DNA of 64,000 bases, taken from assembly GCA_022825725.1 (NCBI GenBank), contig JAJDWE010000033.1, forward strand, positions 23,926 through 87,925, given 5' to 3'. Source of the DNA: Gemmatimonadota bacterium. Its GTDB lineage: Bacteria; Gemmatimonadota; Gemmatimonadetes; Palauibacterales; Palauibacteraceae. The notes beneath the pieces were generated by a model, which did not search any database, was not told where the DNA came from, and saw nothing but the letters and a program-made list of their open reading frames with translations. The position numbers and the translations under genes were made by a program. Below, piece after piece: positions 16,561 to 19,433 of the stretch. How positions within the stretch are numbered: position 1 is the stretch's first letter; every line of letters begins with the position of its first letter.

Positions 16561-17603
16561 GCGGGAAAGGCGAGGTCGCCGAATTCCCCGCGGCCGATCC
16601 AGCGGTGCGGCCGCGGGTTCGTGACCTCACCCGACCGCCACCGGGCCTGGTGCACGGTGAGCCGCAGGCGGAAGTGACTGAACGCATGCCGCAGCACGCG
16701 AATCTCCTCACCCACGCTGCAGTCGAGGCCGAACCCTTCTCGAAGAACTCTTGTGAGCGCCGGCGCCGGCGGGGTCGGAGAGGGCAGCCGGACGGAGGGA
16801 AAATCCCACAGACCGCCCAGGAGTCCGTCCGACGGCCGCCGCAGTACGAGCACCCGTCTGCCGCGCCGGACGACGGCCGCCGCCTCGACCCGCTCGGGGG
16901 ACCGGGCGCGCCTACTCCTCGGGGGCCGCTCCCCGATCGTTCCCCGCCGCAGCGCCAGGCATCGACTCGACAGCGGGCACGCTCCGCACCTCGGCCGGCG
17001 CGGCGTACAGACCGCGCTCCCGAGGTCCATCAGCGCCTGGTTGACATCTCCCGGCCGCTCCGGGACCGTGGCGAGGAGGGCTCGCGCGGCCCGATCGAGG
17101 TCGGAAGGAGAGGCCGTCTCGAGATCGCCCAGGCGCGACAGAACTCGGCGCGCGTTCCCGTCGACCGCGGGTTCCGGCAACCCGAACGCCACGCTGGCAA
17201 CGGCGCCCGCCGTATAGGGGCCCACGCCCGGGAGCGTCCGCAGCTCCGACACCGCCCGCGGGATCCGGCCGCCGTATTCCGAAACCACGCGCCGCGCCGC
17301 CCGGCGCAGGTTGCGGGCCCGCGCGTAGTACCCCAGACCCTCCCAGAGACCGAGGACCTCGTCCTCCTCCGCATCCGCGAGGGTCCATACGTCGGGGAAG
17401 CGACCCATGAACCGCCGATGGTACGGCGCGGCGGTCTCCACCCGCGTCTGCTGCGCCATGACCTCGGCCACGAGGATCGCGTAGGGGTCCCGCTCTCCAC
17501 GCCACGCGATGTCGTCCCGCTGCCGCGTGTCGAACCACTTCAGCAGCGCCACCGCCACCGCGGACGCCTCCGGGTCAGCGCGTGGCTTCGGGGAAGACGC
17601 CAT
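16509..17603 (-). CDS. mutY: A/G-specific adenine glycosylase
   Basis: VAEVMAQQTRVETAAPYHRRFM, LPGVGPYTAGAVASVAF, Cys cluster CTPRRPRCGACPLSSRC. Confidence 0.93.
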   Translation of the reverse strand: MASSPKPRADPEASAVAVALLKWFDTRQRDDIAWRGERDPYAILVAEVMAQQTRVETAAPYHRRFMGRFPDVWTLADAEEDEVLGLWEGLGYYARARNLRRAARRVVSEYGGRIPRAVSELRTLPGVGPYTAGAVASVAFGLPEPAVDGNARRVLSRLGDLETASPSDLDRAARALLATVPERPGDVNQALMDLGSAVCTPRRPRCGACPLSSRCLALRRGTIGERPPRSRRARSPERVEAAAVVRRGRRVLVLRRPSDGLLGGLWDFPSVRLPSPTPPAPALTRVLREGFGLDCSVGEEIRVLRHAFSHFRLRLTVHQARWRSGEVTNPRPHRWIGRGEFGDLAFPAYLRRLVDEEISPRNAR

Positions 17604-18378
17604 CGAAGATGAACACCGCCGGTCCGGTGAGGCGGATCCGCCCCGCCTCGAGGAATTCTACCGTCAGCGGGGCCCCGGATCGGACCATGAACTCGACCCG
17701 GTCCCCCGCCTCGCCCGCGGCACGGAGCGCGAACGCCGCCGCCATGCAGCCGCTGCCGCAGGCGAGCGTCTCGCCCTCCACGCCCCGTTCGAAGGTGCGG
17801 ATAACCACCGTTCCTCCGTCGCGGGCGACGAGGTGCACGTTCGCCCCTCCCGGGCCGACATCCTCCCGCCACCGAAGGGGCCGGCAGAGATCGTCGAAAT
17901 TCTCCACATCCACCGACGGGACGGGGACCACGAGGTGCGCGGTCCCCATCCGCACGAGCCAGGCGTCACGTTCCTGCGGATTTCCGGTTCCGGCGCGCGC
18001 GCGCAACTCGCGTTCCACGCGGGCTTCGAGCGCGTATTCCAGGGCCACGCCGTCCTCCCGCACCCGCGCCAGGATCTCACCGTCGTCCGTCACGAGGATG
18101 TGATCGGGGGGCACGAGCCCCCGCTCCAGCGCGTAGCGCGCCGCGCAGCGCGAACCGTTCCCGCAGGTGGAAAACTCGGAGCCGTCGCAGTTGAAGAACC
18201 GGAGGCGGACGACTTCTTCGCTGAGGCTTCGGACGGTGATCAGCCCGTCCACGCCGACGCCCGTCGCGCGGGGGCACAGCGCGGCGGCCAGGGCCCCCGC
18301 ATCCCGGAGCCCCAGTTCTTCGCCGCGCACGATCACGAAGTCGTTGCCGGCTCCGGTGTATTTGCTGAATAACGACAT
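17575..18378 (-). CDS. dapF: Diaminopimelate epimerase
   Basis: MSLFSKYTGAGNDFV, STCGNGSRCAARYA, LACGSGCMAAAFA. Confidence 0.93.
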   Translation of the reverse strand: MSLFSKYTGAGNDFVIVRGEELGLRDAGALAAALCPRATGVGVDGLITVRSLSEEVVRLRFFNCDGSEFSTCGNGSRCAARYALERGLVPPDHILVTDDGEILARVREDGVALEYALEARVERELRARAGTGNPQERDAWLVRMGTAHLVVPVPSVDVENFDDLCRPLRWREDVGPGGANVHLVARDGGTVVIRTFERGVEGETLACGSGCMAAAFALRAAGEAGDRVEFMVRSGAPLTVEFLEAGRIRLTGPAVFIFDGVFPEATR

Positions 18379-18400
18379 ATTCTCAGAGGAAGGGCAGGGC

Positions 18401-18440
18401 GAAAAGGAAGCCGGCCGCAAGCATGAAGCCCACGGCCGGC
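18401..18440 (-). terminator. Intrinsic terminator upstream of dapF
   Basis: Minus strand GCCGGCC…GGCCGGC stem followed by TTCCTTTTC. Confidence 0.7.
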
Positions 18441-18536
18441 TCTTGTCTCAACCGAAACCTGACTCGACGCGACGCCGGCAAGGCACCGCAGCTTTCAGGT
18501 CGGCGCATGTCTCGGGCGCCACCGGTTCAAGACCGG

Positions 18537-18602
18537 TTACGCTGCCTCGAGGCGATCGCTTGCCCGTGCCGAGTCAGACCCGGTTCTACATCCTGCAGAC
18601 AC
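18537..18602 (-). CDS. Candidate 21-aa leader peptide (VSAGCRTGSDSARASDRLEAA)
   Basis: GTG start 7 nt after AAGGAGG within a 12-nt exact 16S-tail complement AAGGAGGTGATC (18605-18616). Confidence 0.4.
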   Translation of the reverse strand: MSAGCRTGSDSARASDRLEAA

Positions 18603-18755
18603 TAGATCACCTCCTTCCAAAGAGTTTACGGATAGGGCACGAAAGCACCTGTTGTGCGCCATGATGCCGTGCACTCGCCCGCGCTGCAAGTTTTTTTGCC
18701 TTGCTGGCTCCGCCACCTTGCGTGAGAATCAGGCCGGCCAGACGGCGAGGAGGAG

Positions 18756-19433
18756 ATGACGGACAGCCCGGAAAAGGCGTTGTCGCCGGAGGAGCGGCAG
18801 GCGACGGTGGACCGTCTCTGCGCACATTTCGCGCGCGACGCCATGAACACGACGGAACTGGAACGCCGCCTGGACATCGCGTACGCCGCGCGCACCCGGG
18901 CCGAACTCGTTGCGCTCGAGCGAGACCTCCCCGCACTACGGAGCGAAGCCCGCCCCGCTGGGCCCGCCCCCGTGGCGACGGCCTCCGTGCCGGTGGATCC
19001 GGCCCGGCCCGTCCAGGAGAGCGACCTCATCGTCTCCATCTGGGGGGCGACGGAGCGCAAGGGCAGCTGGATCCCGCCCCGCCGGCTCAACGCCGTTACG
19101 GTGATGGGGGGTACGGATCTCGATTTTCGGCAGGCGACGTTCGCGACGGAGACGGTTTCGGTCCGGCTCCTTGCGCTCATGGGAGGCGTGGACATCGTTG
19201 TCCCTCCGGGGGTCCGCGTCGAGTGGGGCGGCATCGCGCTGATGGGGGGCGTGAGCACGCCGGAGCCGGACACGCCGCCCGCCCCGGACGCTCCCGTCAT
19301 CCGGATCAGCGGCCTCGTCTGCATGGGAGGTGTCGACGTCGTCGAGCGACACCCGGGCGAGAGCGCGAGGGACGCACGGAAGCGGATCAAAAGGGACCGC
19401 AGAGCCCGGCGAAGACTCGCCTCGGGCGACTAG
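18756..19433 (+). CDS. DUF1707 and LiaF-like domain protein
   Basis: N-terminal short helical DUF1707-like region and repeated VMGGTDLDFR / LMGGVDIVVP / LMGGV / CMGGVDV strands. Confidence 0.75.
   Translation: MTDSPEKALSPEERQATVDRLCAHFARDAMNTTELERRLDIAYAARTRAELVALERDLPALRSEARPAGPAPVATASVPVDPARPVQESDLIVSIWGATERKGSWIPPRRLNAVTVMGGTDLDFRQATFATETVSVRLLALMGGVDIVVPPGVRVEWGGIALMGGVSTPEPDTPPAPDAPVIRISGLVCMGGVDVVERHPGESARDARKRIKRDRRARRRLASGD

Follow-up and report, generated by a model that had tools for sequence, protein, structure and literature searches.

A central question raised by the DNA in front of dapF in a Gemmatimonadota genome is whether the RNA encoded there is a leader that controls diaminopimelate and lysine synthesis, as the original prediction proposed, or the product of a gene of its own. 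The window analyzed here is a 64,000-nt stretch of that genome. It carries dapF (diaminopimelate epimerase; DAP_epimerase, Pfam 1.3e-37) on the minus strand at 17575..18378, as a neighbor that lies outside the RNA. Our best explanation, which as a whole we hold with a probability of about 0.5, is that this DNA holds a stand-alone small RNA gene of ~250 nt that has a terminator, and probably also a promoter, of its own, in which a Shine-Dalgarno (SD) sequence and an internal mimic of the 16S rRNA tail may form a switch that reports or buffers ribosome supply.

The element upstream of dapF

All parts of the element lie on the minus strand. The extended SD, AAGGAGGTGATC (18616-18605), is the exact 12-nt complement of the 16S 3' tail that had been claimed, as checked on the 16S 3' ends of relatives. 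The possibility that this 12-mer is a piece of a 16S gene was rejected, as it sits in unrelated intergenic DNA and the real 16S tails of relatives continue CCAGCCGCAGG. The sequence AAGGAGGTGATCNAG occurs a single time in the 3.5-Mb genome, and no tRNA or tmRNA was found in the window. Seven nucleotides after AAGGAGG, a GTG codon (18602-18600) opens the predicted small ORF (18537..18602), which has 21 codons, encodes MSAGCRTGSDSARASDRLEAA and ends with TAA at 18537; its frame is kept in relatives. Within the ORF lie the P1 5' strand (TCTGACTCGGC, 18568..18578), a bulge (ACGGGCAA, 18560..18567) and the P2 5' strand (GCGATCGCC, 18551..18559), and these are followed by the P2 3' strand (GGCGTCGC, 18469..18476) and the P1 3' strand (GTCGAGTCAGG, 18458..18468), all assigned from the alignment and covariation described below.

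The long-range arms AACCG/CGGTT (18450-18454 with 18581-18585) and CTGACTCG/CGAGTCAG (18459-18466 with 18570-18577) of the original prediction are both present. Its GGCAAG/CTTGCC helix did not stand as a conserved feature, since its bases are accounted for by the invariant bulge and by the edge of P2, and CTTGCC becomes CTCGCC in congeners. The GCAGC/GCTGC helix and the two inner hairpins fared no better, given that the region that contains them differs in length and sequence even among members of the window's family. The terminator predicted before dapF corresponds to a G+C-rich, terminator-like hairpin (18442-18407) that ends ~23 nt from the dapF ATG at 18378 and was recognized by sequence and folding. 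Together with its short U-rich tail the hairpin spans 18402..18442, and it has the same relative place in relatives. The U-run 3' of the hairpin is short in the window (CTTCCTTTTC), which explains why an automatic scan missed this terminator, and longer runs are present in relatives.

Upstream of the SD, a candidate promoter was picked out by eye at 18661..18689 (TTGCAG at 18689-18684, a 17-nt spacer and CATCAT at 18666-18661), and promoter-like TTGC-N17-TAnnnT arrangements also occur upstream of the RNA in relatives. The promoter is putative because a strict consensus scan of the window found none. The minus strand of the element folds better than shuffled sequences (z -2.5). The divergent neighbor (18756-19433, plus strand) encodes a DUF1707 domain with a sub-threshold LiaF-like C-terminus, and several genera of the window's family retain this neighbor next to the RNA.

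A structured RNA family of the Gemmatimonadota

A search by DNA similarity recovered the element from almost every member of the genus and from most of the other genera in the window's family, and a Gemmatimonadetes MAG (L159) has a copy nearly identical to that of the window. A pattern search that allowed up to two mismatches detected the element or look-alikes in 75 of 301 Gemmatimonadota genomes, mostly as GGAGGTGATCnn-TTG-TCT. A covariance model, R1, built on 36 diverse copies yielded matches, the best with an E-value of 1e-27, in 169 of the 301 genomes, which represent 70 of 121 genera. There is almost always one match per genome; genomes G165, G250 and G269 have two each. No common riboswitch core had been recognized in the element, and an Rfam search of 15 Gemmatimonadota loci, the window's among them, agreed in returning no family at threshold, so that identity with a known riboswitch or RNA family was rejected. 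In the literature, no functional study was found.

Members of the family share a conserved order of parts, namely the 16S-tail complement, the start, the short ORF, P1, the GGGC bulge, P2 and the terminator. In a MAFFT alignment of the 36 copies, the 3' ends of which were trimmed by P1 complementarity with a resulting bias towards structure, P1 (11 pairs) and P2 (9 pairs) were formed in 93% of cells, while slid versions of the helices were paired in at most 42%. Changes on both sides occurred at 11 of 11 P1 pairs and at four P2 pairs, and cells with double changes numbered 127 versus 30 in shuffles, a count that none of 500 shuffles reached. RNAalifold recovered the same P1/P2 region from an untrimmed, structure-blind alignment. 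Conserved pairing in homologues, the check that the original prediction had put forward, is thus found across 36 relatives, and the strong covariation and the absent Rfam match at threshold bear out its claim of an undescribed structured RNA. It is near certain that the element represents a real, new, phylum-wide RNA family with the P1/P2 fold.

The GGGC between P1 and P2 (18565-18562 in the window) is invariant in the alignment (A1). GCCC is found 21-38 nt upstream of GGAGG in 47 of 49 nonredundant copies that bear the bulge, against a background of 24%, and is absent from three of four bulge-less copies; GCCY is present in 40 of 40 model-found loci examined. This pattern, which is one of co-occurrence and not covariation, suggests that the GCCC of the 5'UTR (18635..18638 in the window) forms a pseudoknot with the GGGC bulge. 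Alternatively, the GCCC motif could be part of the promoter. Four copies (L203, L218, L224 and L225) are shortened, with ORFs of 11-14 codons and no bulge motif, and keep the 16S-tail mimic; three of them also lack the GCCC in the 5'UTR.

A short ORF with a conserved frame

The ORF ranges from 14 to 23 codons across the family. In 52 of 53 nonredundant copies, its start is separated from the bulge by 31, 34 or 37 nt, i.e., by a distance of 1 mod 3 (one of the 52 owes its place to a chance GGGC at 58 nt), and it is also 1 mod 3 in all 40 model-found loci, 20 of which were newly fetched. In the first 42 nt there are 4 in-frame stops where 22 would be expected. Starts in the model-found loci are TTG in 38 cases, GTG in one and ATG in one. 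The lack of ATG starts and the constant TCT second codon among the copies from the pattern search are products of the search pattern, and several second codons other than TCT occur in the model-found copies.

Variation at codon position 3 does not exceed that at positions 1 and 2, and single-nucleotide differences between codons comprise 301 nonsynonymous versus 131 synonymous changes. A functional peptide was rejected on the grounds that there is no codon-position signal. Comparison of the copies shows that the frame is conserved and the peptide is not, and that weak starts are preferred. The short in-frame ORF overlaps the conserved helices, as in leader-peptide attenuators, which upholds the earlier view that translation of this ORF would remodel the fold.

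Predicted masking and release of the Shine-Dalgarno sequence

Within the 5' strand of P2 lies a mimic of the 16S tail GATCACC, namely GATCGCC (GATCGCC(TC), 18557-18549 in the window). This mimic could pair with the SD, and in 98% of cells it is able to pair with the GGTGATC there. When growing transcripts were folded with a partition function, the probability of SD:mimic pairing dropped from 0.58 to 0.15 once the 3' strands were present, and for the window RNA it dropped from 0.93 to 0.00. The window estimate depends on the 5' end that is assumed, because the RNA with 34 instead of 24 nt upstream had less SD:mimic pairing at intermediate lengths. The SD was more accessible than in a control with shuffled 3' strands (Wilcoxon p 6e-9, with relatedness ignored), and 23 copies gained more than 0.1 while none lost. 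The folding calculations lend moderate support to a model in which the nascent RNA hides the SD and the finished RNA frees it.

Replacement of the nascent masking by a long-range helix, as in RNAs of the aapA/hok type, is predicted in many but not all copies. In the folding model, L045, L047 and L214 have no nascent masking and L048 and L250 remain masked; L368 has an altered SD with no compensating mimic. Shortened copies that lack the bulge and P2 motif retain the mimic (GGATCGCC, GGATCACC and GGGTCGCC). Family f2 has the SD GGTGGTC (A to G) with the mimic GACTGCC (U to C), a compensatory pair, and a double change of this kind is seen at just one pair and is probably one event. The bases of the SD and mimic are nearly invariant and are also required for P2, and the energy of the SD:mimic duplex alone shows a modest gain that 21% of shuffles equal.

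Proposed mechanism and alternative explanations

The near-maximal SD, weak start and ORF of 14-23 codons would make the act of translation matter, and not the peptide. While transcription is under way, the SD would be hidden by base pairing with the GATCGCC mimic within the ORF. Just before the terminator, the 3' strands of both helices would emerge, whereupon P1 and P2, perhaps aided by the GCCC:GGGC pseudoknot, would sequester the mimic and so uncover the SD. A 30S subunit could then dock on the SD through the 16S tail, and the translating ribosome would reopen P1 and P2. The RNA would therefore have three states: ribosome-free, ribosome-loaded and translated. We infer that the RNA signals or buffers how many initiating ribosomes are available, and that its output may run through its own stability or through strands exposed by translation, and not through the next gene. 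The presence of a unique locus with a full 16S-tail complement, together with the weak starts, points at ribosome supply or the state of the 16S 3' end as the signal, and sensing or buffering of initiating ribosomes is our best guess for the physiological role. A broader proposal, which is tentative, is that the RNA is a phylum-wide sensor of initiating ribosomes that combines a near-perfect bait for the 16S tail with an internal copy of that tail, is toggled by the order of transcription and by translation, acts on itself or in trans and not on an adjacent gene, and arose or was retained in two phyla or more, Gemmatimonadota and Alphaproteobacteria among them.

A different explanation is that the RNA is a cis-acting attenuator of dapF and of lysine/diaminopimelate synthesis, in which the leader ORF sets read-through of the terminator. 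In the window's genus, dapF is on the same strand ~23 nt past the terminator-like hairpin, and it is also the next gene in genus g5. The association is not constant, however. Within the window's family dapF adjoins the RNA only in genera g1 and g5, while genera g2, g6 and g7 have the RNA without dapF, as does every other family examined; among the fetched copies from outside the window's family, none has dapF beside the RNA. Nor is a same-strand gene reliably there to be regulated, as 29 of 45 loci have a downstream gene in the same orientation as the RNA and 16 have one in the opposite orientation. In addition, the ORF of the window has no lysine codons and no conserved antiterminator was found. 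Attenuation of dapF is thus largely refuted as the function of the family, and we regard it as very improbable. The suggested regulator of dapF and lysine synthesis gives way, on account of the restriction of dapF to two genera, the opposite orientation of a third of the next genes and the RNA's own terminator, to the alternative that had been raised beside it, a free-standing ncRNA, which the comparative evidence favors. Gene context across the family indicates that the RNA is a stand-alone gene and not a dapF leader.

Three other explanations accept such a gene and differ on what it does. The RNA might be a ribosome sponge, or decoy, that holds 30S subunits through its SD, with translation incidental, much as 6S RNA holds RNA polymerase. 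This fits with the near-maximal complementarity to 16S rRNA, with the occurrence of that complement once per genome outside 16S, and with the weak starts and a P1 located ~20 nt past the start, both of which would delay the entry of a bound ribosome into elongation. Yet a pure decoy would have no need for an ORF that is kept open and in frame to its stop, and it would require very high abundance of the RNA, which makes this explanation unlikely. If the RNA instead acts in trans as an sRNA, strands of P1 and P2 opened by translation (the mimic or the P1 3' strand) would base-pair with target mRNAs, at the SD or elsewhere, under on/off control by the ORF. The resemblance of the mimic to an anti-SD and the stand-alone gene with its terminator agree with this, but covariation lets the sequence of the P1 3' strand change freely from family to family, so that it can have no fixed phylum-wide targets; we consider such a role quite unlikely. 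A functional micro-peptide (e.g., MSSPSTLSSLARASDRRSGS), with RNA structure merely tuning its expression, is harder still to credit. Its frame is conserved and a core, (A/T)(R/W)AS(D/G)R, recurs, but the core encodes the bulge and P2 and so is conserved at the level of nucleotides, the codon figures given above run against selection on the peptide, and shortened copies lack the core altogether.

Counterparts in Alphaproteobacteria

Against Rfam RF01867 (CC2171, an sRNA of Caulobacter), the window RNA gave a match that is full-length but weak and below threshold (23.1 bits versus a gathering threshold of 75; E 0.039 in a 3-kb search). CC2171 has the 5' block GAAAGGAGGUGAUCCAGUGUCU, from which the GGAAGGAGGTGATCTAGTGTCT of the window has two differences. 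A scan of the collection for GGAGGTGATCYAGTGTCY returned at least 120 loci, and among the matches listed nearly all were from Alphaproteobacteria and almost all had an ORF of 14-26 codons. The CC2171 threshold was passed by 4 of 18 sampled loci, with the Rhodobacteraceae, Bradyrhizobium and Devosia types failing. In 12 genomes, a perfect AAAGGAGGTGATC occurs only at this gene and in the 16S genes. A relative in Mesorhizobium huakuii, MH_s33, was reported as a 215-nt region in RNA-seq (PMC5596092).

Like the window RNA, CC2171 and its unclassified Alphaproteobacterial relatives have the GAAAGGAGGUGAUCCAGUGUCU 5' block, a 16S-tail complement, a GTG start and a short ORF, and the Rfam structure of CC2171 similarly has a helix that joins the early ORF to a strand just before the terminator. 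These features suggest that CC2171, which Rfam lists as an sRNA, is a small mRNA. The P1 sequence, bulge and P2, however, are not common to both groups. The alignment of R1 to the Alphaproteobacterial loci is essentially confined to the SD/start block, and common descent is not demonstrable past that block. Several viral contigs (L277, L280, L290, L315 and others) have genes of ~65-135 codons that open with AAGGAGGTGATCNN-TTG/GTG-TCT, in which the block is apparently a convergent strong start. Since phage genes with ordinary, longer ORFs have reached the same arrangement of SD, TTG/GTG and TCT, convergence is possible for the Alphaproteobacterial genes as well.

The predicted masking of the SD also differs between clades. 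CC2171-type RNAs weakly resemble the Gemmatimonadota order, whereas Rhodobacteraceae reverse it, with the finished RNA predicted to hide the SD, and a single SD switch for all clades was rejected for this reason. In the consensus fold of the Rhodobacteraceae type (L084-L195), a 3' sequence (CATCTCC, CACCTCC or similar) that precedes the terminator pairs with the SD, so that the finished RNA looks translationally closed. In Bradyrhizobium (L098, L099 and L104), the 14-codon ORF MSYLKRCHLAGIAR contains TCACCTC, which in the consensus fold pairs locally with the SD and start codon to make a hairpin. Context varies by clade and no conserved neighbor gene was found in Alphaproteobacteria, where neighbors were named by reading of their sequences and not by family search. 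The counterpart in L082, L084, L090, L110, L123, L150 and other Rhodobacteraceae is mostly located between an upstream, same-strand gene resembling queuosine precursor transporters and an arfB-like ribosome-rescue gene. An RNase R-like gene follows it in Bosea and Methylobacterium, and its neighbor in Microvirga is an RF3-like gene in divergent orientation.

Significance and comparison with known systems

The discovery is solid in its own right, since a structured RNA with a covarying core and no Rfam entry is present, once per genome, in more than half of the Gemmatimonadota genomes that were sampled. If the proposed role in reporting or buffering ribosome supply is true, the RNA would make the way in which bacteria measure their free ribosomes accessible to genetics. 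Two kinds of known systems share parts of its arrangement. Leader-peptide attenuators, such as the ilvB and trp leaders, likewise have a short ORF that runs over helices and is followed by a terminator, but they differ from the window family in having a conserved downstream gene, a regulatory run of codons and a conserved antiterminator.

The other kind is represented by aapA3 of Helicobacter pylori, a type I toxin mRNA with metastable hairpins that mask the SD (PMC6733600). In RNAs of the aapA3 type, as is predicted for the window RNA, the nascent SD is hidden by an anti-SD located in the 5'UTR or ORF that is later displaced by a long-distance helix. RNAs of the aapA/hok type have a toxic peptide and an antisense antitoxin RNA, whereas the peptide of the window family is not conserved. 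Moreover, the finished aapA3-type RNA is inert until it is processed, while the finished fold of the window type is predicted to free the SD.
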